Origin: Promicromonospora thailandica
Lineage (GTDB): Bacteria > Actinomycetota > Actinomycetes > Actinomycetales > Cellulomonadaceae
NCBI RefSeq assembly: GCF_024171955.1
Contig: NZ_JAMTCS010000010.1
Coordinates: forward strand, 62,001 to 126,000
Length of the DNA: 64,000 nt
Direction of reading: 5' to 3'
The position numbers and the translations under genes are program-made. Of this stretch, positions 8,961 to 47,698 are shown piece after piece (position 1 is the stretch's first letter; the number at the start of each line of letters is the position of its first letter). The notes beneath the pieces are model-generated. The model made no database searches, was not told the origin of the DNA, and saw only the letters and a program-made list of their open reading frames with translations.

Positions 8961-9028
8961 GAGGTCGGTCGGTTGTCCCGAGATCGGTCCATCGATGGAC
9001 CGATCTCGGGGCAACCGACCGACCTCGC
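8961..9028. repeat. 68-bp near-perfect palindrome, family A copy 1
   Basis: Two 34-nt arms pair at 33 positions, the remaining one being a G-T wobble. The centre is CCATCGATGG. It fills the convergent junction between the acetyltransferase and the acyl-CoA ligase, so it is probably a bidirectional terminator, although it has no U-tract. A second copy with compensatory changes lies at 41618-41693. Confidence 0.92.
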
Positions 9029-9033
9029 AGGGC

Positions 9034-10866
9034 TCAGCCGATCAGGTGGAGCGACTCCTTGTTCTTGTCCGCGTACAGGCGCTCGACGTCGGCCTCGAAG
9101 TCCTTGAGGAAGACCGCACGCTTCACGCTCTGCTTCGGTGTGAGGTAGCCGTTCTCGATGGTCAGGTCGCCCGGCAGCACCGTGTACTTGCGGATCGACT
9201 CGGCCTTGGAGACCGCCTTGTTGGCGCGCTGCACGGCCTGGTCGAGCGCGGCGAGCACGTCCGGGTCCTTGCGGGCCTCCTCGACGGTGAGCGCGGGCTT
9301 GCCGTGCATCTTGAGCCAGCCGGGCAGCCCCTCGGCGTCGAGCGTGATGAGCGCGCCGATGAACGGCCTGTTGTCGCCCACCACCACGCACTGGCTCACC
9401 AGCGCGTGGGCCCGGATCCGGTCCTCGAGGTTGGACGGCGCCACGTTCTTGCCGCCGGCCGTGACGATGATCTCCTTCTTGCGACCGGTGATCGTGAGGA
9501 AGCCGTCGTCGTCCAGGACGCCGAGGTCGCCGGTGCGGAACCAGCCGTCCTCGGTGAACGCCTCCGCCGTGGCGGCCTCGTTCTTGTGGTACGCCCGGAA
9601 GATGTGGTGGCCCTTGAGCAGGATCTCGGAGTCCTCGGCGATCTTGACGCTGCAGCCCGGCAGCTGCAGGCCGACGGAGCCGATCCTCGTCGACGCGGGC
9701 CGGTTCACGCTCGTGGGGGCGGTGGACTCGGTGAGACCGTAGCCCTCCAGCACCTTGAGGCCGAGGCCCCGGTAGAAGTGGCCGAGGCGCTCGCCCAGCG
9801 GGCCGCCGCCGGAGACCGCGAAGTCGGCGCGGCCGCCGAGCCGGGCCCGCAGCTTGGAGAACACGAGCGCGCTCGCGACGGCGTGCTGCAGCCGCAGGCC
9901 CAGGCCCGGGCCGGACGGCGTGTCGAGGGCCCGCGACCAGGCGATGCCCGTGGCCGTGGCCCAGTGGAAGATCTTCGCCTTGCCGCCGGCCGCCGCCGTC
10001 TGCTCGGCCGTGTTGTAGACCTTCTCGAAGACGCGCGGCACCGCGAGGATGAAGGTGGGGCGGAACTGGCCCAGCGCGTCGACCAGCGTGGTCGTGTCGC
10101 CCCAGTGGCCCGTGACCACGCCGCCCGCGACCCCGAGCACGTGGATGAACCGCGCGAACACGTGCGCCATCGGGATGAACAGGAGGGTGCGCCCGTCCTG
10201 CTTGGAGAACACCTCCGGCACGGCCTCGACGGCGTTCACGGCGAGCGACGCGAAGTTGCGGTGCGTCAGCTCGGCGCCCTTCGGGCGCCCCGTCGTCCCC
10301 GAGGTGTAGATGATCGTGGCGACGTCGTCGAGGTTCGCCAGGCTCCGTCGCCGGGCGATCTCCTCGTCGGTCACCGCGGTCCCCTCGCCCGCGACCGCGT
10401 CGAGCGCGCCGTCGTCGATGACGAGCACGTCCGTGAGCAACGGCACGGTGTCGCGCACCTCCGCGACGGTGGCGGCGTTGGCGGCCGTCTCCGCGAAGAG
10501 GAGCTTCACCTCGGCGTCCGAGGTGATCCACTCGACCTGCTCGGCCGAGGAGGTCTCGTAGACCGGTACGGGGACCGCCCCGGCGGCCCAGACCGCGAAG
10601 TCCAGCACCGCCCACTCGTACCGCGTGCGCGACATGATGCCGACGCGGTCGCCGGGCTCGATCCCGCGGGCCACCAGGCCCTTCGCCACAGCGACCACCT
10701 GGGCGTCGAACTGGCCGGCCGTGACGACCCGCCAGGGCTCGTCCTTGCCGGCGGGTACCTCCATCATCGGCTTGTCGGCACCCTTGCCGACCCGATCCGC
10801 GAGCACGTCGTTGAGGTTGGAGGTGGGGGGCAGCTCGATGAGGACCGGGCTGTTGATCTCGTCCAT
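9034..10866 (-). CDS. long-chain fatty-acid--CoA ligase (AMP-forming)
   Basis: It activates long-chain fatty acids to acyl-CoA via an acyl-adenylate. The 610-aa protein has the P-loop-like IIYTSGTTGRPKGAE, the GYGLTES adenine-binding motif, WFRTGDLG and the hinge/catalytic ITGRKKEIIVTAGGKN; the closest pattern is the FadD15-type ligase. The ATG at 10866 has GGAG 7 nt upstream; the frame remains open to 10977, but this contains no conserved residues. It is divergent from the glucokinase gene. A TATCTT about 40 nt upstream could be its -10. Confidence 0.92.
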   Translation of the reverse strand: MDEINSPVLIELPPTSNLNDVLADRVGKGADKPMMEVPAGKDEPWRVVTAGQFDAQVVAVAKGLVARGIEPGDRVGIMSRTRYEWAVLDFAVWAAGAVPVPVYETSSAEQVEWITSDAEVKLLFAETAANAATVAEVRDTVPLLTDVLVIDDGALDAVAGEGTAVTDEEIARRRSLANLDDVATIIYTSGTTGRPKGAELTHRNFASLAVNAVEAVPEVFSKQDGRTLLFIPMAHVFARFIHVLGVAGGVVTGHWGDTTTLVDALGQFRPTFILAVPRVFEKVYNTAEQTAAAGGKAKIFHWATATGIAWSRALDTPSGPGLGLRLQHAVASALVFSKLRARLGGRADFAVSGGGPLGERLGHFYRGLGLKVLEGYGLTESTAPTSVNRPASTRIGSVGLQLPGCSVKIAEDSEILLKGHHIFRAYHKNEAATAEAFTEDGWFRTGDLGVLDDDGFLTITGRKKEIIVTAGGKNVAPSNLEDRIRAHALVSQCVVVGDNRPFIGALITLDAEGLPGWLKMHGKPALTVEEARKDPDVLAALDQAVQRANKAVSKAESIRKYTVLPGDLTIENGYLTPKQSVKRAVFLKDFEADVERLYADKNKESLHLIG

Positions 10867-10987
10867 TCTGACTCCAGTGGCAGTACTGACCGTGCCTGCA
10901 AAGATACCGGGAAACGGACGCCGCGTGGAGCACCGCCGGCGGTCGCTACCCTGGGTGTGCGCACCCGACAGGTGCAACCCCCTTTCC

Positions 10988-11005
10988 GACGGCCCGCGGG
11001 CCGTC
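10988..11005 (+). promoter_or_regulatory. 18-bp perfect palindrome in the glucokinase 5' region
   Basis: GACGGCCCGCGGGCCGTC lies between a TACCCT (10950-10955, possible -10) and the ribosome-binding site of the ROK gene. It could form a 5'-UTR hairpin or be an operator; neither is demonstrated. Confidence 0.4.
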
Positions 11006-11030
11006 GTGCAACGAGAGAACGTGAGGACGC

Positions 11031-11975
11031 ATGCACGCCATCGGGGTCGACATCGGCGGCACGAAGATCGCTGTGGGAGTCGTCGACGAGGAGGGCAACA
11101 TCCTCGCCCAGGTACGCCGGGAGACCGACGCCGACGACGTCGCGAACATCGACGAGGCGATCGCGGACGCCTGCAACGAGCTCGTCAAGGAGCACGAGGT
11201 GAGCGCCATCGGGCTCGCCGCGGCCGGCTTCGTCAGCCCGGACCGCACCTCCGTGAACTTCGCCCCCAACATCGCCTGGCGTGAGTACCCGCTGGCCGCG
11301 AAGGTCGGCGCGCTGGTCGACGCCGACGTCCCGATCGTCGTGGAGAACGACGCCAACGCCGCCGGCTGGGCCGAGTTCCGGTTCGGCGCGGGCCGGGACG
11401 CCACCGACATGCTGATGCTGACGGTCGGCACGGGCCTGGGCGGCGCGGTGATCTCCGAGCGCGACCTCGTGCGCGGCAAGTGGGGCATGGCCGCCGAGGT
11501 CGGGCACATGCGGGTGGTGCCGGAGGGGCACTACTGCGGGTGCGGCCACGAGGGCTGCTGGGAGCAGTACGCCTCGGGCAGCGCCCTGGAGCGCGACGCC
11601 CAGCACGCCGCCGTCGCGCGCGTGGACCAGGCCGCGCGGCTGCTGGAGCTGGCGGGCGGCGACGCGGCCGAGATCCGCGGCCGCATGGTGACCGAGGCGG
11701 CGCAGGAGGGCGACCCGCTCGCCGTCGAGCTGCTCGCCACGCTCGGCCGCTGGATCGGCGAGGGCTCCGCGTCGGTCGCGGCCCTGCTGGACCCCGAGCT
11801 CATCGTGATCGGCGGCGGGGTGGGGGCGGCGGGCGACCTGCTGCTCGGCCCCGTGCGCCGCGGCTTCGAGGCGCAGCTCTCCGCGATGGGCCACCGGCCC
11901 GTCGCCCAGATCGAGCTCGCCGAGCACGGCAACGAGGCGGGCATCGTGGGCGCGGCGGACCTGGCCCGGCGCTGA
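11031..11975 (+). CDS. glk: ROK family glucokinase
   Basis: It is expected to phosphorylate glucose with ATP or polyphosphate. The N-terminal phosphate-binding motif GVDIGGTKIAVGVV, the catalytic ENDANAAGW and TVGTGLGGAVI, the glucose-binding EVGHMRV and the ROK zinc motif CGCGHEGCWE are all present; the length is 314 aa. There is no N-terminal helix-turn-helix, so it is a kinase and not a ROK repressor. GAGG precedes the ATG at 11031. In actinobacteria such enzymes often mediate carbon-catabolite signalling, which is not visible here. It ends at a family B palindrome. Confidence 0.9.
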   Translation: MHAIGVDIGGTKIAVGVVDEEGNILAQVRRETDADDVANIDEAIADACNELVKEHEVSAIGLAAAGFVSPDRTSVNFAPNIAWREYPLAAKVGALVDADVPIVVENDANAAGWAEFRFGAGRDATDMLMLTVGTGLGGAVISERDLVRGKWGMAAEVGHMRVVPEGHYCGCGHEGCWEQYASGSALERDAQHAAVARVDQAARLLELAGGDAAEIRGRMVTEAAQEGDPLAVELLATLGRWIGEGSASVAALLDPELIVIGGGVGAAGDLLLGPVRRGFEAQLSAMGHRPVAQIELAEHGNEAGIVGAADLARR

Positions 11976-11992
11976 CCCGCTCGCCCCGGACG

Positions 11993-12034
11993 TGTCAGAC
12001 GCTCGGCCCACCCGGGTGAGCCGAGCGTCTGACA
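11993..12034. repeat. 42-bp palindrome, family B copy 1
   Basis: Two 21-nt arms pair at 20 of 21 positions around CACCCGGGTG, with a single unpaired C/A just outside the central decamer. It sits between the convergent glucokinase and membrane-protein genes. The sequence family (GTC-N-GACGCTC) recurs at 20830-20875, with the same unpaired C/A. Confidence 0.88.
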
Positions 12035-12057
12035 GGTGCGGCAGCGGACGCAGGAGG

Positions 12058-12774
12058 TCAGACGACCGCGCCCGGACCGTCGTCGTCGGGGTCGCGCTGG
12101 TGCGGCATGCGCCAGATCAGCACGCCCAGGCCGGCCACGAACAGACCGATGCCGATCTGACCGACCAGCGGCGGGATCTCCAGCGCGGGGATCGCCGCCG
12201 CCAGGATCATCCCGATCACCGCGAGCACGGGCACGCCCACGACGAAGCTCCACGCCATCGTCAGCAGCGGGTCGCGGGACAGCAGCGGGGGCGGCTCCGG
12301 CGGGGTGAAGTGGCTCTCGGCCTCCTCGAGCGCCTCGGCCTCGGGCGACAGCGGCCAGTCGCGCGGACCGCTGCCCGACGGTCGCGGGCGCGCCGCGGCG
12401 TCCGGCTCGGACGTGGCACCCGCGACCGTCCAGTCGCCGGCCGCCCAGCCGCCCTCGGACCAGCCGCCCACCCGGCGGCCGCCCGCGCCGCCGCCCGCAC
12501 CGCCGGTCTCGTCATCCGGCCGCGAAGTCTGAGAGGATTCGGCGGTCTTGCCCGGGCCGTCGGCATCGCCGTCGCCCTCGTCCGCGCCGTCGGCACCCTC
12601 GGGGCCGCCGGTGCGGGAGGCGTCGCGTCCGGCGTCGTCGGCCCGGGATCCGTCGAGGTCGCCGAGCGTGGCGACGATGTCTGCCCAGCGCGAGGCCACG
12701 TCGTCGTCGCCCAGTTCCCGGGGGGTGTCGCCGGGTACGTCGTCGTCGCGGTCGTCGGTGTTCGATGCGGCCAT
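12058..12774 (-). CDS. membrane protein with long acidic N-terminus
   Basis: About 238 residues. Residues 1-150 are low-complexity, acidic and Gly/Ala/Pro-rich; the C-terminus carries two hydrophobic helices (WSFVVGVPVLAVIGMILAAA and VGQIGIGLFVAGLGVLIW) joined by a short turn, ending in an acidic tail. It is an inner-membrane hairpin protein of unknown function. The ATG at 12774 is chosen because TAGAGT ends 6 nt upstream. It is divergent from plsC. Confidence 0.75.
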   Translation of the reverse strand: MAASNTDDRDDDVPGDTPRELGDDDVASRWADIVATLGDLDGSRADDAGRDASRTGGPEGADGADEGDGDADGPGKTAESSQTSRPDDETGGAGGGAGGRRVGGWSEGGWAAGDWTVAGATSEPDAAARPRPSGSGPRDWPLSPEAEALEEAESHFTPPEPPPLLSRDPLLTMAWSFVVGVPVLAVIGMILAAAIPALEIPPLVGQIGIGLFVAGLGVLIWRMPHQRDPDDDGPGAVV

Positions 12775-12780
12775 GCGCAC

Positions 12781-12786
12781 ACTCTA
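12781..12786 (-). promoter_or_regulatory. -10 element of the membrane-protein gene
   Basis: TAGAGT on the minus strand with 6 nt to the ATG at 12774; leaderless start predicted. Confidence 0.55.
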
Positions 12787-12829
12787 TTGTCGGACGCGGG
12801 CCCGCGGGGCCGGGTCGTGAGGAGGAATC

Positions 12830-13597
12830 TTGTTCTACTGGGTGATGAGGAACCTGCTGGTCGGCCCGTGGCTGCGCCTCGCCTACCAGCCGTGGGTCGT
12901 GGGGGCCCGGAACGTGCCGCGCACAGGCCCCGCGATCATGGCCAGCAACCACCTCGCGGTGATCGACTCGTTCATCCTGCCGCTCGTGGTCCCGCGCCGC
13001 GTGACGTTCCTCGGCAAGTCCGACTACTTCACGGGCAAGGGCCTCAAGGGCCGGGTCGTCGCCTGGTTCATGACCGGGATCGGCGTCATCCCCGTGGACC
13101 GCTCCGGCGGCGCCGCGAGCGAGGCCGCGCTGCGCACCGGTCTGCGGGTGCTGAGCGAGGGCAAGCTGTTCGGCATCTACCCGGAGGGCACCCGCAGCCC
13201 CGACGGCCGCCTCTACAAGGCCAAGACCGGCGTGGCCCGGATGGCGCTGGAGTCCGGCGCGCCGGTGATCCCCGTCGCCATGGTCGACACGGACGTCGCG
13301 CAGCCGCCCGGCCGCGGCCTGCCCGCCTTCATGCCGCTCGGCGCCGTGATCGGCGAACCGCTCGACTTCAGCCGGTACAAGGGCATGGAGACCGACAAGT
13401 TCGTGCTGCGCGCCGTCGCCGACGAGATCGAGTACGCGATCCTCGCGCTCTCCGGCCAGGAGTACGTCGACGCCTACGCGGCCAGCGCCAAGGAGCGGAT
13501 GGCGCGCGGCGAGGCCCCGCCCCCCACCGCCGAGGAGGGCCCGGGCGGCCTCCCCCTCCCGGAGGTCGACAAGCCGCGCCGCCCGACCCGCCGCTGA
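12830..13597 (+). CDS. plsC: 1-acyl-sn-glycerol-3-phosphate acyltransferase (PlsC family)
   Basis: It transfers an acyl chain to lysophosphatidate in phospholipid synthesis at the membrane. The acyltransferase motif I is NHLAVID (H-x4-D) and motif III is YPEGTRSPDG; the length is 255 aa. The start is a TTG at 12830, which gives the family-typical FYWVMRNLLVGPWLR N-terminus and has GGAGG 4 nt upstream; this rare codon is the only one that fits. It converges on the LacI-type gene across a perfect 23-bp-arm hairpin. Confidence 0.9.
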   Translation: MFYWVMRNLLVGPWLRLAYQPWVVGARNVPRTGPAIMASNHLAVIDSFILPLVVPRRVTFLGKSDYFTGKGLKGRVVAWFMTGIGVIPVDRSGGAASEAALRTGLRVLSEGKLFGIYPEGTRSPDGRLYKAKTGVARMALESGAPVIPVAMVDTDVAQPPGRGLPAFMPLGAVIGEPLDFSRYKGMETDKFVLRAVADEIEYAILALSGQEYVDAYAASAKERMARGEAPPPTAEEGPGGLPLPEVDKPRRPTRR

Positions 13598-13613
13598 GGC
13601 CACCGAGTCCGCG

Positions 13614-13671
13614 TCGAGAACGACCTGCGGGACGCTCCCGAGGCCGAAAGCGTCCCGCAGGTCGTTCTCGA
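13614..13671. repeat. perfect 23-bp inverted repeat at a convergent junction (type D)
   Basis: TCGAGAACGACCTGCGGGACGCT pairs perfectly with its complement across a 12-nt loop (13637-13648). It is probably a bidirectional terminator for plsC and the lacI-type gene. There is no U-tract. I found no second copy in the window. Confidence 0.9.
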
Positions 13672-13682
13672 AGGGGTTTACC

Positions 13683-14705
13683 TCATCGAGGTACCGACGT
13701 CGCCCGCGGCGGCGCCGTCGAAGCCCGCTGCACCAGGCTCGTCGCGAGCTCCGTGCGCAGGGTGTGGCCGCTCGCGGTGCGGGCGCGGTGCACCAGGTCG
13801 ACGGCGGTGGCGCCCATCTCCGCCAGCGGCTGGCGCACCGTGGTGAGCGCGGGGTCGATCCAGGGCGCGATCGGCAGGTCGTCGAAGCCGACCAGCGAGA
13901 CGTCGCGCGGCACGGACAGGCCCGCCTCGCGCAGCGCGCGCAGCGCCCCGAGCGCGGTGTCGTCGCTGCTCGCGAAGATCGCCGTGGGCGGGTCGTCGAG
14001 GGCCATGAGCCGCTGCGCCCCCTCGTACCCCGACGTGACACCGTACGAACCCACGTAGACGAGGTCGTCGTCGGTGGTCAGGCCCGCCCGGATCATGGCC
14101 GCGCGGTAGCCCGCGAGGCGGGCGATGGCGTTGTCCTGCTCCAGCGCACCCGTGATCGTCGCGATGCGGGTGTGGCCGAGGGACAGCAGGTGCCCCGTGG
14201 CCTCCAGCCCACCCTGGAAGTTGGTGGCACCCACACTGAGCATGCCCTCGGGCGGCCGCTGCCGCGGGTCGACGACGACGAGCGGCGTGCCGGTGGTCGC
14301 CAGCGCGCGCCTGGCCTCGGCGTCGGGCACCGCGACGATGCTGACCAGGCCGTCGGTGCCGCGCTCGAGCGCGTGCCGCACCCAGGCGCTGCAGTCGTCG
14401 GGGTCGGGCTCGACGGCCAGCACGACGTCGAGGCCGAGCCGCCGCGCGCCCGCGACGGCGCCACGGACCACCGCCTCCGACCAGGTGCCCTCGAAGTCGA
14501 CGATCCGCACGTCGATCATCCCGGTGGGCTTGGCGGCCGGCGGCCGCACCTCGTAGCCATGCCGCTCCAGCACCTCGGTCACGCGGGTGCGGGTCCGTTC
14601 CGACACGTCGGGGCGGGTGTTGAGGACCTTCGAGACCGTCGGCACCGAGACGCCGGCCTCTGCCGCCACCACGGCGAGCGGTGTGCGGGGCTGGTCGGCT
14701 GCCAT
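13683..14705 (-). CDS. LacI family transcriptional regulator
   Basis: The N-terminal helix-turn-helix reads PLAVVAAEAGVSVPTVSKVLNTRPDVSERTR (about residues 9-40), with a hinge helix after it and a periplasmic-binding-protein-like sensor domain up to residue 340. It is divergent from a sugar ABC transport operon and most likely represses it, with an oligosaccharide as inducer (inference). Three TTTC-S-GAAA-like sites lie in the 222-bp intergenic region, one of them close to its own start, which suggests autoregulation. Confidence 0.92.
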   Translation of the reverse strand: MAADQPRTPLAVVAAEAGVSVPTVSKVLNTRPDVSERTRTRVTEVLERHGYEVRPPAAKPTGMIDVRIVDFEGTWSEAVVRGAVAGARRLGLDVVLAVEPDPDDCSAWVRHALERGTDGLVSIVAVPDAEARRALATTGTPLVVVDPRQRPPEGMLSVGATNFQGGLEATGHLLSLGHTRIATITGALEQDNAIARLAGYRAAMIRAGLTTDDDLVYVGSYGVTSGYEGAQRLMALDDPPTAIFASSDDTALGALRALREAGLSVPRDVSLVGFDDLPIAPWIDPALTTVRQPLAEMGATAVDLVHRARTASGHTLRTELATSLVQRASTAPPRATSVPR

Positions 14706-14732
14706 GGGTCCTCCGGCGTCGTCGGCGATGCG

Positions 14733-14741
14733 TTTCCGAAA
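14733..14741. promoter_or_regulatory. candidate LacI operator 1
   Basis: TTTCCGAAA, a palindrome about one central base, 28 nt upstream of the lacI-type start. It resembles the two sites downstream of the transporter promoter. Confidence 0.45.
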
Positions 14742-14816
14742 TCCGGATCGTAGCCGACGAACGGACCGACCCCGTAATTGCCTGAGGCGACCGGCCGTAG
14801 CCGAGCGCCGGGCCCG

Positions 14817-14845
14817 TTGACAACGCCGCAGAGCCCGCCTAACCT
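14817..14845 (+). promoter_or_regulatory. sigma70-type promoter of the ABC/glycosidase operon
   Basis: TTGACA (14817-14822) and TAACCT (14840-14845) are separated by 17 nt, a near-consensus housekeeping promoter and the clearest -35/-10 pair in the window. Predicted transcription start is near 14852, about 75 nt before the start codon. Confidence 0.75.
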
Positions 14846-14854
14846 CCCGGGGTC

Positions 14855-14885
14855 TTTCCGAGATTCACCTTCGAAATTTCGGGAA
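14855..14885. promoter_or_regulatory. candidate LacI operators 2 and 3
   Basis: TTTCCGAGA (14855-14863) and TTTCGGGAA (14877-14885) each approximate TTTC-S-GAAA and overlap the predicted transcription start region; the palindrome CGAAATTTCG at 14872-14881 overlaps the second. Position suits repression by the divergent LacI protein. Confidence 0.5.
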
Positions 14886-14927
14886 CTGATCCTCGCGGAT
14901 CACCAGCGGATCAACAAAGGAGTGATC

Positions 14928-16205: not shown

Positions 16206-16207
16206 CC

Positions 16208-17940: not shown

Positions 17941-17966
17941 CCGTCCCCGTTCCAAGGAGCTCGTCC

Positions 17967-19154: not shown

Positions 19155-19168
19155 GGCCGCACGAGCCC

Positions 19169-19210: not shown

Positions 19211-19236
19211 CTACGACGACGTAGAGGAGACGCACG

Positions 19237-20814: not shown

Positions 20815-20829
20815 CCCCCACCCCCCGCG

Positions 20830-20875
20830 CGTGTCGGACGCTCAGGCCACCATGGTGACCTGAGCGTCCGACACG
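20830..20875. repeat. 46-bp palindrome, family B copy 2
   Basis: Two 23-nt arms pair at 22 of 23 positions around CACCATGGTG, with an unpaired C/A at the same place as in the copy at 11993-12034. Unlike the other elements it lies between two genes in the same direction, so it could terminate or attenuate transcription before the GH13 gene. Confidence 0.88.
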
Positions 20876-29498: not shown

Positions 29499-29618
29499 GT
29501 CATCACCCCTGGGGTAGGAGACACGTGCCTGCCCATCGATGTCTCCAGTAGACACCCGGGCGGCCGCGCCTTCCACCCCGACGACGAAACCCGACGCCCG
29601 GCGCGTGACACGACAGTT

Positions 29619-29661
29619 CCGGCGGGCCGCCCGGGGACGAGGTCCCCGGGCGGCCCGCCGG
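29619..29661 (-). terminator. 20-bp-stem terminator after sodA
   Basis: Two perfectly complementary 20-nt arms (CCGGCGGGCC...GGCCCGCCGG) with a GAG loop lie 15 nt beyond the sodA stop on the minus strand. This should separate sodA from the second qcrB. Confidence 0.8.
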
Positions 29662-29675
29662 ATCAGGTCAGGAGG

Positions 29676-36429: not shown

Positions 36430-36437
36430 CCCCCTGC

Positions 36438-36541
36438 CGAGATAGAACCTTGGCGAGATAGAACGCTGGCGAGATAGAACTGGGGCCGGACCGCTGATCA
36501 GCGGTCCGGCCCCAGTTCTATCTCGCCAAGGTTCTATCTCG
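36438..36541. repeat. palindrome made of 16-bp units, family C copy 1
   Basis: The left arm has three 16-bp units CGAGATAGAAC-NNN-GG (NNN and last bases varying: CTTGG, GCTGG, TGGGG), then a perfect 24-bp palindrome (CCGGACCGCTGA and complement, 36486-36509), then two units in reverse orientation. The right arm is the exact complement of left units 1 and 3, so unit 2 is an unpaired insertion. It fills the convergent trpD/ctaF junction. Confidence 0.92.
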
Positions 36542-36550
36542 GCGGAACCG

Positions 36551-36952
36551 TCAGTGCGAGTGGATGCCTCGCGAGAACTCGAACACCCAGCCCACCAGCG
36601 CGATGACAGCCACGCAGAAGCCGATGTAGAGCACCCACCAGCCCACGGCCAGGCCGAGGAAGCAGACCGCGGCGGAACCCGCGATCGCCAGCGGCCACCA
36701 GCTCCAGGGCGCGTACACGCCCTGGTCGCCCGCGGCATCCTCGATGTTGCCGTTCGGGTCGTCCTCCGGGCGGGCATCGATCCGGCGGGCCGTGAGGGCC
36801 AGGTACGCGCCGATCATGGCCACCAGGCCGCCGACCAGCGGCATGCCCAGGAAGCCGACGGGCTCGCTCCAGTCCGTCATGAAGCCGTAGACGATCCCCG
36901 CGCCGACGAACAGCGGAGTACCCCAGAGGAAGAGGCGGCTCTCGATCTTCAC
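36551..36952 (-). CDS. ctaF: cytochrome c oxidase subunit IV (actinobacterial CtaF)
   Basis: A 133-aa protein with four transmembrane helices ([77 protein letters not shown]), matching the actinobacterial-specific subunit IV of aa3 oxidase. Its GTG overlaps the ctaD stop (GTGA). It is the last gene of ctaC-ctaD-ctaF. Confidence 0.93.
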
Positions 36953-39692: not shown

Positions 39693-40097
39693 GGGAGGCC
39701 TTTCACGTCTCGTCCGGCGCGTCGCACCGGTTTCCTCCCGAGCTCCACGCAGAACCTTCGTCCTCGATGAGATGCAGCCTAGCGCGCCCGGAGGCCTGAT
39801 GATGCCCGGAAGGGGCCCGCGGAGACGTGACGCACTCCGCATCCGGGGCAGGTGTCGGTGCTGTTCAGGACACGCGCCCGGGTCGTGTCAGAACGATCGC
39901 TGCGCGGGGCCTCGCGCGCGGGTGCGAGGATCGGGGGGACGACGACGGCGGCGCACCCGCTCCCGCGCCGGAACCGCACCGGAACCGCACGGGAACGGCA
40001 CCCGTCCCGCCGTCGTCCCGACGCCGCCCCGGCGCCGGAGCCGCCCGCCCGGCCACGGGCGCGACGCTCCCGCCGGACCCCACGAGCAGGAGGACGT
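39693..40097. other. 405-bp divergent intergenic region
   Basis: No convincing gene. It contains TAGGCT (minus strand, 39776-39781) as a likely ctaC -10, and a GC-rich part with imperfect repeats of CCGGAACCGCA around 39968-40000. Open frames over it lack any domain. A GGAGGA ribosome-binding site for the downstream gene ends it. Confidence 0.5.
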
Positions 40098-41306: not shown

Positions 41307-41334
41307 CGCCGCCCGTGTCCGACGCACAGGTCAC

Positions 41335-41340
41335 TAGAGT
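41335..41340 (+). promoter_or_regulatory. -10 element of tusA
   Basis: TAGAGT ends 7 nt before the GTG at 41348; leaderless start predicted, so tusA need not depend on the upstream gene. Confidence 0.55.
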
Positions 41341-41347
41341 GGCGTGC

Positions 41348-41596
41348 GTGTCTGACACGTTGGTGGACGCGCGCGGGTTGCGGTGCCCGCTGCCGGTGAT
41401 CCGTCTGGCCGCCGCCGCGAAGGACCTGCCGGCGGGGACGGAGCTCACGGTGCTGTCGACCGACCCGGCGGCCCGGCTCGACGTCCCGGCCTGGTGCCGC
41501 ATGCGCGGTCACGTGCACGTGGCGACGCGGGAGCACCGGGCGGAGGATGACGACGACCCCTGGACGGGCTGGGCGGTCACGGTCCGCCTGGCCTGA
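41348..41596 (+). CDS. tusA: TusA/SirA family sulfurtransferase
   Basis: A small (82 aa) persulfide carrier: LVDARGLRCPLPVIRLAAA holds the family Cys-Pro-x-Pro motif that accepts sulfur from cysteine desulfurases for tRNA thiolation or cofactor sulfuration. It lies directly after the desulfurase-like gene; in several actinobacteria the two are fused into one protein. It ends at a long family A palindrome. Confidence 0.88.
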   Translation: MSDTLVDARGLRCPLPVIRLAAAAKDLPAGTELTVLSTDPAARLDVPAWCRMRGHVHVATREHRAEDDDDPWTGWAVTVRLA

Positions 41597-41617
41597 CCCC
41601 GGTCACGTCCGCTCGTA

Positions 41618-41693
41618 TCGCTGAGGTCGGTCGCTTGCCTCGAGATCGGTCCATCGATGGACCGATCTCGAGGCAAGCGACCGACCTCGGCGA
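41618..41693. repeat. 76-bp near-perfect palindrome, family A copy 2
   Basis: Two 38-nt arms pair at 37 positions, the other being a T-G wobble, around CCATCGATGG. It is homologous to 8961-9028: same core GGTCCATCGATGGACC and same GAGGTCGGTCG ends. It lies at the convergent tusA/erpA junction. Confidence 0.92.
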
Positions 41694-41720
41694 GTTCCTG
41701 CATCCACCCGGGCGGACGAC

Positions 41721-41753
41721 GGCGGGCCGGTCACCCGTGGTGACCGGCCCGCC
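41721..41753 (-). terminator. terminator hairpin after erpA
   Basis: GGCGGGCCGGTCACC and its complement enclose a CGT loop; perfect 15-bp stem, 20 nt beyond the erpA stop on the minus strand. So this junction holds both a conventional GC hairpin and the family A palindrome. Confidence 0.75.
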
Positions 41754-41772
41754 TCGGGCGCTGCGGCTCAGA

Positions 41773-42126
41773 TCAGGAGAACGACCCGCCGCAGGCGCAT
41801 GCGCTGCCCGCGTTCGGGTTGTCGATCGTGAAGCCCTGCTGCTCGATCGTGTCCTTGAAGTCGATCGTGGCGCCCTCGAGGTACGGCACGCTCATCTTGT
41901 CCACGACGACCTCGACGCCGTCGTAGTCCCGCAGCGCGTCCCCGTCGAGCAGCCGCTCGTCGAAGTAGAGCTGGTAGATCAGCCCGGAGCAGCCACCCGG
42001 CTGCACCGCGACGCGCAGGCGCAGGTCGTCGCGGCCCTCCTGCTCGAGCAGGCTACGGACCTTGCCCGCGGCGACGTCGGTGACGTTGACGCCGTGGGTT
42101 GCGATGTCCGTGGTGGTGTCGGTCAT
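41773..42126 (-). CDS. erpA: iron-sulfur cluster insertion protein (HesB/IscA family)
   Basis: An A-type Fe-S carrier (117 aa) with the three conserved cysteines: one in QPGGCSGLIYQLYFD and two in the C-terminal ACACGGSF. It delivers clusters to apo-enzymes such as nearby quinolinate synthase NadA or the Rieske protein (inference). The ATG at 42126 has GGGAG 5 nt upstream. Its gene is followed by a 15-bp-stem terminator. Confidence 0.93.
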   Translation of the reverse strand: MTDTTTDIATHGVNVTDVAAGKVRSLLEQEGRDDLRLRVAVQPGGCSGLIYQLYFDERLLDGDALRDYDGVEVVVDKMSVPYLEGATIDFKDTIEQQGFTIDNPNAGSACACGGSFS

Positions 42127-42270
42127 GTCATCTCCCGATCGTGTTCGACATACCCGTAGTCGTACTTTCAGCCGTTCCAACCCGTTGGATCGTCCGTCTG
42201 TTCCCGCTACCGGTTGTTCTCCGACGATCGTACGCCTCAGGACCCCGGGGGCAACCATGCGTCCACAGCG

Positions 42271-42289
42271 CGGCGCCCACCGGGCGCCG
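42271..42289 (-). terminator. hairpin after the glycerate-kinase-like gene
   Basis: CGGCGCCC and GGGCGCCG flank an ACC loop, 3 nt beyond the stop at 42292 on the minus strand. Confidence 0.6.
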
Positions 42290-42291
42290 GC

Positions 42292-42867
42292 TCAGGAGGC
42301 CCAGCCGGGGGTCCAGGTCCGAGCCACGCGGGCGACGTCGCCGTCGGTCACCTCGTGCACCCCGCTGAGGCCCGCGGTGGACCACTCGCGCCTGGTCACC
42401 TCGCTGCGGTCGGTGACGACCACGACCGGGACGGCGTGCGGCGCGGCCGCGGCGGCCGCCTCCACGACGACGCCGCGGCGCAGCTCCTCGCCGTCCAGCC
42501 GCGTGACGTACGCCACGACGACGTCGGCCCCCGCGGCGGCTCTCCCGAGCGCCGCCCCGTCGGCGGGCGGCAGCACGGACGGCGCCGGGCCGGGTGCGCT
42601 CGGGCCGGGCTGCGCGGGTCCCGCGTCCGTGGCGCCGACGGCGGCCGGCCGGCCCACGGGGATCGCCGCCCCCGCCAGCAGCACGCTGCCGCTCGCGGGC
42701 TCGTGCCCCAGGGCGGGAGGCACGGACGGCGCCGTGCCACGCGCCCCGGGCACCACGACCTCACGGGCCTCGGCGACGGCGTGCGGCGCGGCGGCGTGCC
42801 ACGCGGAGGCGAGTCGCTCGGCGTCGGGCAGGGTCTCGGCAAGCAGCAGCACGTGCACGACAGGCAT
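42292..42867 (-). CDS. short glycerate-kinase-superfamily-like protein
   Basis: About 191 aa. The C-terminal half (AAAGADVVVAYVTRLDGEEL, then AVPVVVVTDRSEVTRREWSTAGLSGVHEVTDG) resembles the C-terminal end of class II glycerate kinases (GADLVVTGEGSLD...VPVVAVAGR), but the Glu-Gly-Ser catalytic stretch is altered to YVTRLDG and half the enzyme is absent. It is probably not an active kinase. The ATG at 42867 is chosen; longer in-frame starts exist. It is divergent from nadA. The family call is tentative. Confidence 0.55.
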   Translation of the reverse strand: MPVVHVLLLAETLPDAERLASAWHAAAPHAVAEAREVVVPGARGTAPSVPPALGHEPASGSVLLAGAAIPVGRPAAVGATDAGPAQPGPSAPGPAPSVLPPADGAALGRAAAGADVVVAYVTRLDGEELRRGVVVEAAAAAAPHAVPVVVVTDRSEVTRREWSTAGLSGVHEVTDGDVARVARTWTPGWAS

Positions 42868-42994
42868 CGTGGCACGCGCCCGGCGCGCGCCACCACCCCA
42901 CCTGGACACCGCGCCCGGATCCCGCGCCCGACGACCGTCCGGAAGCCCGCCCCGGCCCTGTGGACGACGCTGTCTGAGCGTCACCGCCGCGTGT

Positions 42995-43000
42995 CATGAT
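42995..43000 (+). promoter_or_regulatory. -10 element of nadA
   Basis: CATGAT ends 7 nt before the GTG at 43008; leaderless start predicted. Confidence 0.5.
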
Positions 43001-43007
43001 GGTCACT

Positions 43008-44213
43008 GTGAGCACCCTGCTGGCTGATCCCACCGGCTTCTCCGAGCCCGCCCCGTCCCCGCTGCTGCTGCTCGGCCAGGGCCGTGACCTGGCCTCCGAG
43101 CGCGGCGTGGAGTGTCCGGGCGACCTGCCCGCCGCGAGCGACCCCGACCTCGTCGAACGGGCCCGCGCCGCGCGTGCCGCGCTCGGTGACCGGGCGTTCG
43201 TGCTGGGGCACCACTACCAGCGCGACGAGGTCATCGACTTCGCCGACGTCACCGGCGACTCCTTCAAGCTCGCGCGCGAGGCGGCCGCCCGCCCCGAGGC
43301 CGAGTTCATCCTGTTCTGCGGCGTGCACTTCATGGCCGAGAGCGCGGACATCCTGACGTCCGACCAGCAGCAGGTCGTGCTGCCGGACCTCGCCGCGGGC
43401 TGCTCCATGGCCGACATGGCGGCGATCGGCCAGGTCGAGGAGGCCTGGGCGGTGCTGCAGGACGCCGGCATCGCGGACTCCACGATCCCCGTGACCTACA
43501 TGAACTCGTCGGCCGCGATCAAGGCGTTCACCGGGCGCCACGCGGGCACCGTGTGCACGTCCTCGAACGCGGAGGTCGCGCTGCGCTGGGCGTTCGACCA
43601 GGTGGGCGGTGTGGACGGCACCGGCAAGGTGCTGTTCCTCCCCGACCAGCACCTGGGCCGCAACACCGCCGTCCTGGAGCTCGGGATGTCGCTGGACGAC
43701 TGCGTGGTGTTCGACCCCCGCAAGCCGAACGGCGGGCTCACCGACCAGGAGCTGCGCGACGCCCGGATGATCCTGTGGCGCGGCCACTGCTCCGTGCACG
43801 GCCGCTTCTCCGAGAAGAACGTCACCGACATCCGCGCGGCGGTCCCCGGCATCAACGTCATGGTGCACCCCGAGTGCCGGCACGAGGTCGTCACCGCGGC
43901 CGACCACGTCGGCTCGACGGAGTACATCATCAAGCAGCTCGAGGCCGCGGAGCCCGGCTCCTCGTGGGCCATCGGCACGGAGCTCAACCTGGTCCGCCGG
44001 GTGGCCCGGGCCCACCCGGACAAGCAGGTGCACTACCTCGACTCGACGGTGTGCTTCTGCTCGACCATGAACCGCATCGACCTGCCCCACCTGGTGTGGG
44101 CCATGGAGTCGCTCGTGGAGGGCCGCATGGTGAACCGGATCGTCGTGGACGCCGACGACGCGCACTGGGCGCGCGTGGCGCTCGACCAGATGCTGGCCCT
44201 CCCCGGGATCTGA
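43008..44213 (+). CDS. nadA: quinolinate synthase
   Basis: It condenses iminoaspartate and dihydroxyacetone phosphate to quinolinate in NAD synthesis. The three 4Fe-4S cysteines are in LAAGCSMADM, MVHPECRHEVV and STVCFCSTMNR; FVLGHHYQRDEVIDFAD is the family N-terminal motif. 401 aa. The GTG at 43008 follows a -10-like CATGAT. nadB and nadC are not next to it; a DJ-1 family gene follows after 13 bp. It depends on Fe-S supply, fitting the nearby erpA. Confidence 0.95.
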   Translation: MSTLLADPTGFSEPAPSPLLLLGQGRDLASERGVECPGDLPAASDPDLVERARAARAALGDRAFVLGHHYQRDEVIDFADVTGDSFKLAREAAARPEAEFILFCGVHFMAESADILTSDQQQVVLPDLAAGCSMADMAAIGQVEEAWAVLQDAGIADSTIPVTYMNSSAAIKAFTGRHAGTVCTSSNAEVALRWAFDQVGGVDGTGKVLFLPDQHLGRNTAVLELGMSLDDCVVFDPRKPNGGLTDQELRDARMILWRGHCSVHGRFSEKNVTDIRAAVPGINVMVHPECRHEVVTAADHVGSTEYIIKQLEAAEPGSSWAIGTELNLVRRVARAHPDKQVHYLDSTVCFCSTMNRIDLPHLVWAMESLVEGRMVNRIVVDADDAHWARVALDQMLALPGI

Positions 44214-44226
44214 CCCGCACGGGCCA

Positions 44227-44811
44227 ATGAGCGGCAACGGCGGGCTGCGCATCGGGATCTTCGTCTTCGACGGGGCGGAGGAGCTCGACGTGGTCGGGCC
44301 CTTCGAGGTCTTCGCCGAGTGGGGCTCGCACTCGCAGCTCCGTCCCACGGTGAGCACGTTCTCGTGGGACGGAGCCGGGGTGCGGCTCGCGAAGGGGCTG
44401 CGGATCCTGCCGGCGCACGGCGCGGACGACGTCGGCCCGCTGCACGTGCTGGTCTACCCCGGCGGGCTGGGCACACGCCCGCTGCTGGCCGAGCCGGGCC
44501 ACCTCGAGTGGCTGCGGCAGATCCGCAAGCAGACCCCCGTCATCGCGAGCGTCTGCACGGGCGCCCTGCCCCTGGCGGCCGCAGGCCTGCTCGCGGGCCG
44601 GCCCGCGACCACGCACCACAACCACTACGACGAGCTCGCCGACATCGACCCGAGCATCCTCGTGGACACCGAGGCGCGGTACGTGGACGACGGCGACGTG
44701 GTCACCTCCGCGGGCGTGTCCGCGGGGATCGACATGGCGCTCCACCTGGTCGAGCGCCTCGAGACGCCCGGCGTGGCACGGGCCGTGCGGTTCGAGATCC
44801 AGGCGACCTGA
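44227..44811 (+). CDS. DJ-1/PfpI family protein
   Basis: A 194-aa class I glutamine-amidotransferase-like protein. The nucleophile elbow is ASVCTGALPLAAAGLL, with YPGGLGTRPLL before it and TTHHNHYDELADI after it. The layout matches the AraC-type GATase domain or isonitrile-hydratase branch, but without a DNA-binding domain. No strong ribosome-binding site; it is 13 bp after nadA and may be coupled to it. The substrate is unknown. Confidence 0.85.
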   Translation: MSGNGGLRIGIFVFDGAEELDVVGPFEVFAEWGSHSQLRPTVSTFSWDGAGVRLAKGLRILPAHGADDVGPLHVLVYPGGLGTRPLLAEPGHLEWLRQIRKQTPVIASVCTGALPLAAAGLLAGRPATTHHNHYDELADIDPSILVDTEARYVDDGDVVTSAGVSAGIDMALHLVERLETPGVARAVRFEIQAT

Positions 44812-44884
44812 CCACCGCGCGGCGGGGCGGTGAGCATGAACCGGGCGCTCCGGTGAGCAGGTATCTGATACTTCCGGTTCCCGG

Positions 44885-44890
44885 TATAAC
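44885..44890 (+). promoter_or_regulatory. -10 element of the thioesterase gene
   Basis: TATAAC ends 8 nt before the ATG at 44899. Upstream, GGTATCTGATAC (44860-44871) is partly palindromic and could be an operator. Confidence 0.5.
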
Positions 44891-44898
44891 CTCGGCAC

Positions 44899-45435
44899 AT
44901 GGCTCGCATGCTCCAGCTCACCTTGTCCGGACTGCTCCCGCGCAAGGCCCGCCCCGGCCAGACGCTGCTCGACCCCTCGGTCACCCGGATGCGCGTCGGC
45001 CCCCTGGACCTGGACTCCTACCTGCACGTCAACAACGGCACGTACCTGCAGATGATGGACGTGGCCCGGAACAACCAGATCGCCGACCTCGGCCTGTTCC
45101 CGGTCGCCCGGCGGAAGGGCTGGGCTCCGGTGGTCGCGGCGTCGACCATGAAGTACCGGCGCTCGCTGCAGCCGTTCGACCGGTTCGAGATCACCACCCG
45201 GATCCTCGGCTGGGACGAGCGCGTCTTCTACCTGGAGCAGGTCTTCACGCGCGGTGACACGCTGTACGCGCGGGGCTGGGTGGCCAGCCGCTTCCTCGAC
45301 CGCAAGGGCAACCGGATCGCTCCGGCCGACGTGATCCGCGACGCGACCGGCGAGGTGCCGGCCTCCCCCGAGCTGCCCGCGGACGTCGCCGCCTGGGCGC
45401 GCGCCGTGGACGTGTCGCCCCGCCCGGTCGCCTGA
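44899..45435 (+). CDS. hotdog-fold thioesterase family protein
   Basis: A 178-aa 4HBT-type hotdog protein: RVGPLDLDSYLHVNNGTYLQMMDVARN is the typical active-site helix region (the Asn-rich HVNN turn), followed by strands MKYRRSLQPFDRFEITTRI and FYLEQVFTRGDTLYARGW. The pattern resembles the THEM6/acyl-ACP thioesterase-like group. It probably hydrolyses an acyl-CoA; the substrate is unknown. Confidence 0.85.
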   Translation: MARMLQLTLSGLLPRKARPGQTLLDPSVTRMRVGPLDLDSYLHVNNGTYLQMMDVARNNQIADLGLFPVARRKGWAPVVAASTMKYRRSLQPFDRFEITTRILGWDERVFYLEQVFTRGDTLYARGWVASRFLDRKGNRIAPADVIRDATGEVPASPELPADVAAWARAVDVSPRPVA

Positions 45436-45442
45436 GCGACGG

Positions 45443-45472
45443 CCCGCGGGGCGCGCGACCACGCCCCGCGGG
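45443..45472. terminator. bidirectional terminator hairpin
   Basis: CCCGCGGGGCG and CGCCCCGCGGG pair across an 8-nt loop, between the convergent thioesterase and M20 peptidase genes. Confidence 0.7.
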
Positions 45473-45481
45473 CGGCTCGTG

Positions 45482-46861
45482 TCAGAGCCCCTCGCCGACC
45501 TTCGTCAGCAGCAGTGCCTCCGCCAGGACGACCTTCTGCAGCTCGCCCAGGTGCACCGACTCGTTCGCGCCGTGGGCGCGCGAGTCCGGGTCCTCGACGC
45601 CGGTCACCAGGATCGCGGCGTCGGGGAAGACCTCCAGCAGGTCCGCGATGAACGGGATGGACCCGCCCACGCCGACGTCGACCGGCGCGGTGTCCCACGC
45701 CTCGGTGAACGCGGCGCGCGCCGCGCGCATCGCCGCGGTGTCGCCCGGCGCGAGGAACGGCTTGCCCTGCTCGCCCGAGCGCCACGTGACGTGGGCGCCC
45801 AGCGGCGCGTGCCGCTCCACGTGGGCCGCGAGCGCCGCGTCGGCGGCCACCGGGTCCTGACCCGGCGCGAGCCGCAGCGAGATCTTCGCGGTGCAGCGGG
45901 GCGCGATCGTGTTGGACGCCGCGGCCACCGAGGTCACGTCCATCCCGATCACGGAGAGGGCCGGCTTGGACCACAGCCGACCCGACAGCGTCCCGGTCCC
46001 GGCCAGCCGAGCGCCCTCGAGCAGCGACGAGTCGGCGCGGAACTCGGCCTCGGCGTAGTCGACCTCGGGCTCGGGCGCGGTGACCAGACCCTCGACGGCG
46101 ACGTCGCCGGCCTCGTCGTGGAACGTCGCCACGAGCCGGGACATCAGGGTGACGGCGTCGAGCACGGCGCCGCCGAACATGCCCGAGTGCACCGCGTGGT
46201 CCAGGACGCGCAGCTCGATCTCGCCGTCGACCAGGCCGCGCAGCGACGTCGTGAGCGCGGGCACGCCGACCTTCCAGTTGGTGGAGTCGGCCACGACGAT
46301 CACGTCGGCCGCGAGCAGGTCGCGGTAGGTCTCCAGGAAGGCCCGGAACGACGGTGAGCCCGACTCCTCCTCGCCCTCGAGGAAGACGGTGACGCCGACG
46401 GGCAGGTCCGCGCCCTCGGGCAGGCCGAGCGCGCGCAGGGCACCCAGGTGGGCGGCGATGCCCGCCTTGTCGTCGGCGGCGCCGCGACCGTACAGCCGGT
46501 CGCCGACCTGGGTGGGCTCGAACGGGTCGGTGTCCCAGGTGGCCGAGTCGCCCGGGGGCTGCACGTCGTGGTGGGCGTACAGGAGCACGGTCGGCGCGCC
46601 CTCGGGGGCGGGCCGGCGCGCGACGACGGCGGGCGCACCGGCCGTGCCGTCGGGGCGCGGCGCGGACAGGATCTGGACGTCGGGCAGGCCGGCGTCGCGC
46701 AGGAGCTGCGCCGTGGCCGTGGCGCTGGCGGCGACGTGCGCCTGGTCGAACGCGGCGGCCGAGACGCTCGGGATGCGCACGAGCGCCTCGAGGTCGGCCT
46801 GCAGGGCGGGGAACAGCTCGGCGACGCGGGCCCGGAGGGCCGCGGTGGTCTCTGTGGTCAC
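45482..46861 (-). CDS. M20 family dipeptidase
   Basis: A zinc metallopeptidase of 459 aa: metal ligands are in LLYAHHDVQP and GRGAADDKAGI, the catalytic Glu pair in FLEGEEESGSP, and a further His in SNTIAPRCTAKISLRLAPG-flanking dimerisation region and NESVHLGEL near the C-terminus. The pattern matches dipeptidases of the CNDP/PepV-like branch. The GTG at 46861 has TAACGT 6 nt upstream. Cytoplasmic peptide turnover is the likely role. Confidence 0.92.
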   Translation of the reverse strand: MTTETTAALRARVAELFPALQADLEALVRIPSVSAAAFDQAHVAASATATAQLLRDAGLPDVQILSAPRPDGTAGAPAVVARRPAPEGAPTVLLYAHHDVQPPGDSATWDTDPFEPTQVGDRLYGRGAADDKAGIAAHLGALRALGLPEGADLPVGVTVFLEGEEESGSPSFRAFLETYRDLLAADVIVVADSTNWKVGVPALTTSLRGLVDGEIELRVLDHAVHSGMFGGAVLDAVTLMSRLVATFHDEAGDVAVEGLVTAPEPEVDYAEAEFRADSSLLEGARLAGTGTLSGRLWSKPALSVIGMDVTSVAAASNTIAPRCTAKISLRLAPGQDPVAADAALAAHVERHAPLGAHVTWRSGEQGKPFLAPGDTAAMRAARAAFTEAWDTAPVDVGVGGSIPFIADLLEVFPDAAILVTGVEDPDSRAHGANESVHLGELQKVVLAEALLLTKVGEGL

Positions 46862-46867
46862 CGGACC

Positions 46868-46873
46868 ACGTTA
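46868..46873 (-). promoter_or_regulatory. -10 element of the M20 dipeptidase gene
   Basis: TAACGT on the minus strand, 6 nt before the GTG at 46861; leaderless start predicted. Confidence 0.5.
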
Positions 46874-46936
46874 ACGGCTGGGCGGTCACCGGCCGGGCGG
46901 TCGGAGGGCTCGCAGCGGGGCACCGGCGCGAGCGGA

Positions 46937-46942
46937 TAGGCT
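46937..46942 (+). promoter_or_regulatory. -10 element of the DUF3043 gene
   Basis: TAGGCT ends 6 nt before the GTG at 46949; leaderless start predicted. Confidence 0.6.
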
Positions 46943-46948
46943 AGGACC

Positions 46949-47554
46949 GTGTTCTCCCGCAGCAAGACCTCGACACCCGACGGCGTGACCCCCGTGGGCG
47001 AGTCCCCGGACGAGGTGACGCAGGCGCCGTCCGCCGCCGGCAAGGGCCGTCCGACGCCCAAGCGCAACGTCGCGCAGGCGGCGAACAAGCGCCCGCTGGT
47101 CCCGGACGACCGCAGGGCGGCCCGCAAGGCGCAGCGCGAGAAGTCGCGCGTCGACCGGGAGCGCACCTACCAGGCGATGCAGACCGGCGACGAGCGGTAC
47201 ATGCCCCCGAGGGACAAGGGACCGGTCCGCCGCTACGTGCGCGACTTCGTGGACGCGCGGTGGAACCTCGGCGAGTTCTTCCTGCCCGTCGCGTTCGTCT
47301 TCCTGTTCGCCACGTTCTTCACGCAGCGGTACCCGGAGCTCAGCATCGTCGTGATGCTCGGCCTGTACGGCTTCCTGCTCCTGACGATCGTCGACGTCTG
47401 GCTGCTGTGGCGGTCGCTGAAGAAGCGCCTGACCGCGAAGTTCGGCGAGGTGCCGCGCGGCCTGCTCATGTACACGGTCACGCGCGCCTACCAGCTGCGC
47501 CGCTCGCGCCTGCCCAAGCCGATGAGCAAGAAGCGCGGCAACTACCCGGAGTAA
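46949..47554 (+). CDS. DUF3043 domain-containing membrane protein
   Basis: A 201-aa actinobacterial protein: a basic, Arg/Lys-rich cytosolic N-terminus (PKRNVAQAANKRPLVPDDRRAARKAQR), the conserved YVRDFVDARWNLGEFFLPV segment, two transmembrane helices (FFLPVAFVFLFATFF and ELSIVVMLGLYGFLLLTIVDVWLL) and a basic tail. The family function is unknown. It is often found near dipeptidase genes in actinobacteria, as here. Confidence 0.88.
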   Translation: MFSRSKTSTPDGVTPVGESPDEVTQAPSAAGKGRPTPKRNVAQAANKRPLVPDDRRAARKAQREKSRVDRERTYQAMQTGDERYMPPRDKGPVRRYVRDFVDARWNLGEFFLPVAFVFLFATFFTQRYPELSIVVMLGLYGFLLLTIVDVWLLWRSLKKRLTAKFGEVPRGLLMYTVTRAYQLRRSRLPKPMSKKRGNYPE

Positions 47555-47564
47555 CCCGTCTCGC

Positions 47565-47698
47565 CGAGATAGAACTGCAGCGAGATAGAACCGTGGCGAA
47601 GTAGAACCGTGGCGAAGTAGAACCCTGGCGGTTGCCAGAGTTCTACCTCGCCACAGTTCTATCTCGCTGCAGTTCTACTTCGCTGCAGTTCTACTTCG
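47565..47698. repeat. 134-bp palindrome made of four 16-bp units per arm, family C copy 2
   Basis: Left units at 47565, 47581, 47597 and 47613 follow CGA-[GA/AG]-TAGAAC-NNN-[GG/AG]; four reverse units occupy 47635-47698; the 6-nt loop is CGGTTG. Fifty-two of 64 positions pair. The unit is the same as at 36438-36541. It fills the junction of the convergent DUF3043 and aldo/keto reductase genes. Confidence 0.92.

Follow-up and report, generated by a model that had tools for sequence, protein, structure and literature searches.

Long palindromes at the ends of genes recur in many copies and in eight sequence families in the soil bacterium Promicromonospora thailandica, as revealed by a 64-kb stretch of its genome (contig NZ_JAMTCS010000010.1, positions 62,001 to 126,000; the window, whose own numbering is used below), by further samples of the genome and by related species. 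They lie preferentially on the stop-codon side of genes, especially where two genes converge, have long hairpin arms, show a period of 16 nt in the family named A, and turn over between species. We give an even chance to the reading that they resemble repetitive extragenic palindromic (REP) elements but lack the associated RAYT transposase, give long hairpins at gene 3′ ends when read from either side, multiply by copying, and change in length through slippage of their units. A first-pass annotation of the window had picked out seven such elements, and its observation was confirmed overall. The elements are real, widespread and dynamic; their mode of spread and their role in termination we infer from sequence comparison.

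Abundance and placement of the palindromes

Inverted repeats were found at all seven places named beforehand in the window. Our own gene calls, made with a codon-usage script (58 genes, 90% coding), agree that six of them lie at convergent junctions and that the one at 20830-20875 alone lies between co-directional genes. The first-pass annotation had described stems of 21 to 64 bp that are perfect or nearly so, which is true of six elements; the seventh, at 47565-47698, does not have a near-perfect 64-bp stem but arms with 81% complementarity across 75 nt, with a mismatch at about every eighth pair of the RNA fold. RNA folds of the seven elements reached −34 to −92 kcal/mol (z −8 to −15), and none of 200 shuffles was equally stable.

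Extending the search to 864 kb, made up of the window and the first 400 kb of each of contigs 1 and 2 and chosen regardless of motif, revealed 91 palindromes (9, 36 and 46, respectively) with arms of up to 52 bp. The control covered the 400 kb of contig 1: a Markov-3 copy of that part contained none, versus 36 in the real sequence. The 91 comprise 52 at convergent junctions, 27 between co-directional and 6 between divergent genes, and 6 inside called genes, against a background of 743 junctions (140 convergent, 466 co-directional and 137 divergent). The convergent excess is pronounced (52 of 85 intergenic palindromes versus 140 of 743 junctions, p about 1e-17), and 41 of the 59 palindromes with arms of at least 20 are convergent. 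Counted by junction, a palindrome with arms of at least 18 is held by 44 of the 140 convergent junctions, 20 of the 466 co-directional ones and 4 of the 137 divergent ones. Convergent copies of the families described below lie at a median of 19 nt from the stop codon, 35 of 60 being within 30 nt of both stops, and 20 of 30 co-directional family copies begin no more than 30 nt past the upstream stop. The position near gene 3′ ends, convergent or co-directional, is that of REP elements.

Sequence families

Clustering of 131 palindromes resulted in eight recurring families (33, 24, 11, 11, 6, 4, 3 and 2 members) and 37 singletons with a mean arm of 18.5. The largest cluster is chained and takes in a few elements that have related motifs only. 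The family shares are biased because the 131 include 40 short stretches picked by known motif matches (25 A, 13 E, 1 B and 1 C), which leave the 864-kb placement counts unaffected. Three families, A, B and C, each occur twice in the window, as the first-pass annotation had seen, and its expectation of many copies genome-wide was borne out. The motif of family A, GTTCTATCTCG, has 118 exact copies in the P. thailandica genome and its reversed control 0; that of family B, GGACCGATCTCG, has 55 (reversed control 0) and that of family C, GAGCGTCNGACA, has 30 (control 2). A 20-mer of family E with at most two mismatches gave 105 (control 0). The elements are thus high-copy extragenic palindromic repeats, as REPs are. 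In all six families tested, agreement between arms is higher inside one copy (94 to 99%) than from copy to copy (86 to 96%). REPs bear an unpaired GTAG or CGTC tag at one end; the outer 5-mers seen most often here, whether paired or not, are AGAAC, TAGAA, CTTCG and CGAGA. Tandem Repeats Finder, applied to one family B region, returned nothing useful. At C1:33020-33300, two near-identical family B elements with similar flanks are separated by 184 bp; element and flank together appear to have been duplicated in tandem.

Family A unit arrays

Beyond the earlier account, which had three families, family A proved to be built of 16-nt units in arrays. The unit is CGA(A/G)(A/G)TAGAAC followed by 5 nt, and 35 of the 37 clusters are complete head-to-head arrays of it; the 37 comprise 30 at convergent and 6 at co-directional junctions and 1 at an edge. 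Units of the same orientation are spaced by 16 nt in 159 of 160 cases and by 17 in one. Each arm has 2 to 6 units, with left and right often unequal, and a family B element of a related genome (G467) appears by eye to be a similar unequal array. Exact units in 1.06 Mb are paired in 92 cases and lone in 8, all eight within arrays (seven with variant units, one in a half-array). A degenerate pattern with one mismatch gave a raw count of 102 isolated matches.

The 5-nt spacer is identical in 43 of 160 pairs of neighbouring units in an arm and, for mirror units of the two arms, in 28 of 63 (counted from the centre) or 26 of 63 (from the outer end), versus 8.2% for units of different elements. We read this sharing as the probable trace of unit slippage and of copying between arms. 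The TAG within the unit serves as the stop codon of 14 of 64 adjacent gene 3′ ends; TAG accounts for 111 of 919 stops overall in the 1.06-Mb sample. At C1:167059-168408, between an M13 peptidase gene and a convergent gene, a lone left half-array of three units and a lone right one of four lie 1.25 kb apart and flank a single 348-aa gene without Pfam match; the locus looks like a gene inserted into a palindrome, splitting one array.

Turnover among related species

Thirteen genomes of the genus, including that of P. thailandica, were compared; the relatives carry labels such as G399. Tandem pairs of family A units number 189 in P. thailandica, 240 in G451, 99 in G414, 74 in G467, 39 in G440, 15 in G483, 6 in G459 and 1 in G399, and 0 in five of the thirteen (G426, G492, G473, G478 and G488); the pair pattern, being exact, undercounts arrays that have decayed or varied, such as those noticed by eye in G492 and G459. 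In a tree built from 20 syntenic proteins of 11 genomes, P. thailandica pairs with G426, and G473 with G467 and G440. The count of family A thus drops from 189 to 0 between P. thailandica and the closest relative compared, and high and zero counts stand in neighbouring lineages. The family B pattern occurs 40 times in P. thailandica and in G478, not at all in G426 and G473, and 3 to 31 times in the other nine.

Closer pairs of species were compared at those adjacent syntenic junctions that hold a palindrome of any sort, even an ordinary hairpin. A palindrome was present in both species at 7 junctions and in one only at 3 for G399/G459 (of 143 junctions), at 13 and 4 for G467/G440 (of 103), at 4 and 7 for G467/G473 (of 57), and at 5 and 3 for G440/G473 (of 54), several of the one-sided cases being threshold effects in which the other species has the same hairpin with mismatches. 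Close species often keep their palindromes, and genuine changes are seen as well.

The first-pass annotation had proposed looking for a RAYT-like protein that tracks the elements. This check came out negative: the RAYT-type domain Y1_Tnp (PF01797) was found in none of the 13 genus genomes, with a positive control of 5 of 14 known genomes, in a search to which other recognition proteins did not belong. On this absence, from P. thailandica itself and throughout the 13 genomes, we reject a RAYT as mobiliser.

Searches beyond the genus gave the family A pattern in 1 of 396 genomes order-wide, P. thailandica itself, in a draw that held no other genome of the genus. The family E motif was found family-wide in 5 of 150 genomes, all of this genus. 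At least 81 stretches among the matches listed are all from Promicromonospora, which does not imply absence elsewhere. Samples of 80 kb from each of five genomes of other genera contained recurring long palindromes of other sequence (G074), several long ones (G273), one with a 25-bp arm (G283), arms of 15-21 (G197) or two of 15 (G060). In G074, from another genus of the same family, the recurring palindromes (L078-L081) have two or three copies each per 80 kb and lie mostly near gene ends. No description of such repeats in Promicromonospora was found among the papers listed by literature searches, whose queries did not use the motif letters.

The seven window elements and their orthologous junctions

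The junctions of the seven elements were compared in ten relatives. At 8960-9027, a family B palindrome with 34-bp arms, no loop and CGAG(G/A)TCGGTC motifs separates the convergent ends of a GNAT acetyltransferase gene (end 8954) and of a gene (end 9034) whose translation, without a family search, we read as a probable acyl-CoA ligase. Six relatives lacked synteny here in the first stretches and four were compared, with G459 added from the closer-pair comparison; family B is present in G399, G414, G478 and G459, and in G451 no palindrome passes the score, with B-like pieces visible by eye. Family C is represented at 11993-12034 (GTGTCAGACGCTC type, 21-nt arms), between a ROK-family gene and a convergent gene without Pfam match. 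Among the seven relatives compared there, G399, G467 and G440 carry C, G451 and G414 carry A, G478 has a weak palindrome and G426 none; the closer-pair comparison revealed C in G459 too. The family D palindrome at 13614-13671 (23-bp arms, 12-nt loop; convergent, with a LacI-family gene on its right) recurs in none of seven relatives compared, which have two weak others, and spacers of 15-24 nt in G426, G399 and G414.

The co-directional element at 20830-20875, a family C palindrome with 23-nt arms, begins 15 nt past the stop codon; in nine relatives compared, C-like palindromes were found in G426, G467, G440 and G473 and none in G459, G399 and G414, and the gene calls overlap in G451 and G478. 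The family A array at 36438-36541 has three left and two right units with a GC-rich apical palindrome between them (arms of 44 nt plus an outer register), and lies between convergent glycosyl transferase family 3 (end 36429) and cytochrome c oxidase subunit IV (end 36551) genes. Family A is found there in G399 (partial) and G467 and another palindrome in G440, a comparison made weaker by stretches of about 1.1 kb, with an extra gene between, in seven relatives. This extra called gene between the two flanking genes (36430-36551) is present in 7 of the 10 relatives and absent from P. thailandica, G399, G467 and G440.

At 41618-41693, a family B palindrome with 38-bp arms at a convergent junction adjoins an ordinary 15-bp hairpin at 41721-41753 (GGGCCGGTCACC..GGTGACCGGCCC), which lies outside the families and serves as a fixed point of comparison. 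By eye, this hairpin is in all nine relatives that have the junction (imperfect in G451). The palindrome beside it is B in P. thailandica and E in G440 and in G467, where a B array is also seen by eye; the other seven of the nine compared have none above the score. The hairpin is one of two further, shorter ones in the window, the other being at 29618-29662. At 47565-47698, four left and four right units of family A form an imperfect stem at a convergent junction; among seven relatives compared, A or A-like arrays occur in G459, G451 and, by eye, G467, and other palindromes in G440, G473, G488 and, by eye, G478. Overall, the palindrome at an orthologous junction is retained, absent or replaced by one of another family.

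Origin and role of the palindromes

The first-pass annotation had put forward two options: bidirectional terminators that multiply by copying, and miniature palindromes of REP type that came to rest at gene ends. Placement, repetition and turnover fit both alike, and the two are not mutually exclusive; what found no support is the RAYT-like protein. According to the reading that we favour, an element read from one or both sides would form a long RNA hairpin that ends or protects transcripts, and copies would survive mainly there for this reason. New gene ends would be reached from existing copies by ectopic recombination or template switching, not by RAYT transposition; arms would lengthen or shorten by unit slippage, and would stay complementary by copying one another. 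The role we favour is a loose one, a transcript end or its protection, with survival mainly where an insertion would do little harm.

Several points weigh against this reading. As the first-pass annotation had remarked, U-tracts are mostly missing: among the 150 tails that follow family palindromes, 2 contain at least four T in 8 nt (mean 1.39 T), which argues against ordinary intrinsic termination. The stable hairpin of an intrinsic terminator is present but the U-tract directly after it is not, and simple, canonical intrinsic termination therefore fits poorly. Arm mismatches on the transcribed strand of 53 co-directional elements (40 in 1,500 pairs) include 11 G-U versus 12 A-C, with 17 others, and thus no G-U excess. 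The 30 co-directional family copies likewise have no bias, in small numbers (8 G-U versus 8 A-C, 9 others). Selection for RNA pairing is therefore unsupported, and copying from arm to arm, or a young age of the copies, would explain the lack of bias better than selection acting only on RNA pairs. In Bacillus cereus terminators, unlike here, G-U is described as the most frequent intermediate (PMC5381666). No clean insertion with target duplication was seen among the pairwise alignments listed for one-sided junctions, most intergenic flanks being too diverged to align, and a transposase of another family acting in trans is possible. Retention is common, as with family B at 8960-9027 in P. thailandica and four relatives, and as in the closest pair (G399/G459), with 7 kept versus 3 differing. 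The function itself, in termination or 3′-end protection, is one that we infer.

A possible but distinctly less probable explanation is that the palindromes are miniature non-autonomous transposons of the miniature inverted-repeat transposable element (MITE) or REP type that a transposase other than Y1/RAYT moves in trans, with gene ends as tolerated sites. Such elements would explain why palindromes are present or absent at syntenic junctions and why copy numbers differ so strongly between neighbouring species; the boundaries seen are not clean. Against them, the alignments listed show no target duplication, and unequal unit numbers in the two arms are unexpected of transposon ends. Arms do occur together in some families (paired versus lone motifs: E 48/1, C 20/2, G 10/1, and F 8/0 for each of two motifs), but pairing is less clear with the looser motifs of others (B 35/20, B2 43/197, D 10/14, H 6/3), many of whose listed lone matches lie inside genes. 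The 348-aa gene between the family A half-arrays has no known transposase domain, in a comparison that did not extend to a systematic search for a larger element with these ends.

Somewhat more doubtful still is the proposal that the repeats are transposase-free and self-extending, with a stop-to-stop palindrome (GAAGTAG/CTACTTC) seeded by template switching from existing copies and arms that then grow by unit duplication and mirror copying. It was considered for the junction of pepA (peptidase M17) with a convergent 83-aa gene, where in P. thailandica two adjacent stop codons (junction 56511/56512) form a 24-bp palindrome at 56500-56523. The same adjacent stops are found in G473; family A arrays with several units per arm occupy the junction in G467 and G440, G459 and G414 have one unit on the left and two on the right, and G492 has a decayed array. 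The other six genomes have no array by eye, and in G483 the stretch left of the short gene is unlike pepA. Under self-extension, these would be stages from stop-to-stop palindrome through small array to several units per arm, and the TAG of family A units can supply the stop codon. The tree favours a probable gain of the array in the line of G467 and G440, but the small arrays in G459 and G414 make loss possible. The stop-to-stop palindrome may simply be due to two genes that end in AAG TAG. Its reading as a scar or seed was rejected for want of enrichment: 2 of 13 genomes have it, both at this one junction, and a reversed control occurs as often (2 per strand in P. thailandica, 1 in G426). 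Template switching would be expected to use short homology, such as CGAAGTAG.

It is unlikely that the palindromes are purely functional bidirectional terminators under selection, with families that reflect gene conversion among terminators and not mobility. Placement at gene ends, stable folds and, at some junctions, retention with changes in both arms would suit such terminators; the lack of a U-tract and of G-U bias would not, nor would the many relatives without a palindrome at the same junction, nor the fall of family A from 189 to 0 in the closest relative. Rfam covariance models gave no match in the window at gathering thresholds, and thus no known RNA family.

Improbable, in our view, are sites acting as DNA, with units that bind a protein (gyrase, a nucleoid or a replication factor) where convergent transcription builds supercoils; the constant 16-nt period, complementarity without G-U preference and the convergent preference would agree with this, but with eight families there would have to be several binders, or a single one that recognises structure. 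DNA uptake sequences double as terminators in Neisseria, and a short motif with many copies in inverted pairs at gene ends recalls them, but that the palindromes are such sequences we consider very improbable and reject for family A, whose exact units in the 1.06-Mb sample are paired or in arrays and not scattered singly. A study of bacterial stem-loops mentions uptake signals that form terminator hairpins (PMC2267715).

Comparison with known systems

The palindromes bear on how GC-rich actinomycetes end their transcripts, and related species with and without them are on offer. Bidirectional intrinsic terminators reportedly are hairpins between convergent genes that are read from both sides (Ju et al. 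2019); the elements here differ in their long arms and in lacking the U-tract in nearly all copies. The TRIT terminators of Mycobacterium tuberculosis (RNIE), sequence-conserved hairpins at actinobacterial gene ends, resemble them in kind. For M. tuberculosis, a paucity of canonical intrinsic terminators is described (PMC10937400). Families of repeated stem-loops have likewise been found in bacterial genomes by clustering, in a study that names Corynebacterium and Mycobacterium among high-GC Gram-positives (PMC2267715).

The CGTC-tagged REPs are akin in being palindromic repeats apparently without a dedicated transposase, but those repeats, which bear an unpaired tag, are described as 20-40 bp long and as occurring in Proteobacteria, Chlorobi, Bacteroidetes, Spirochaetes and Thermotogae (PMC3733652). 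The ecology of our elements, gene-end and convergent REP doublets, is already known and hence not new: REPs are described as short, high-copy and intergenic, near both 3′ ends of convergent genes (PMC3733652), their inverted doublets form hairpins, sometimes in tandem clusters (PMC3116915), and insertion sequences are described as inserting into them (PMC1525189). The likeness to REP, bacterial interspersed mosaic element (BIME) and REP doublet forming hairpin (REPIN) systems with RAYT (TnpA-REP) thus comprises short high-copy intergenic palindromes near 3′ ends, often convergent, and inverted doublets. The differences here are the lack of a Y1 transposase throughout the genus genomes, arms of up to 52 bp, arrays of 16-nt units with fixed period in each arm, and eight families in the sampled part. 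REP-like repeats are mostly explained by RAYT, and a genus with several gene-end families that replace one another and no Y1_Tnp makes the question of their spread directly testable.

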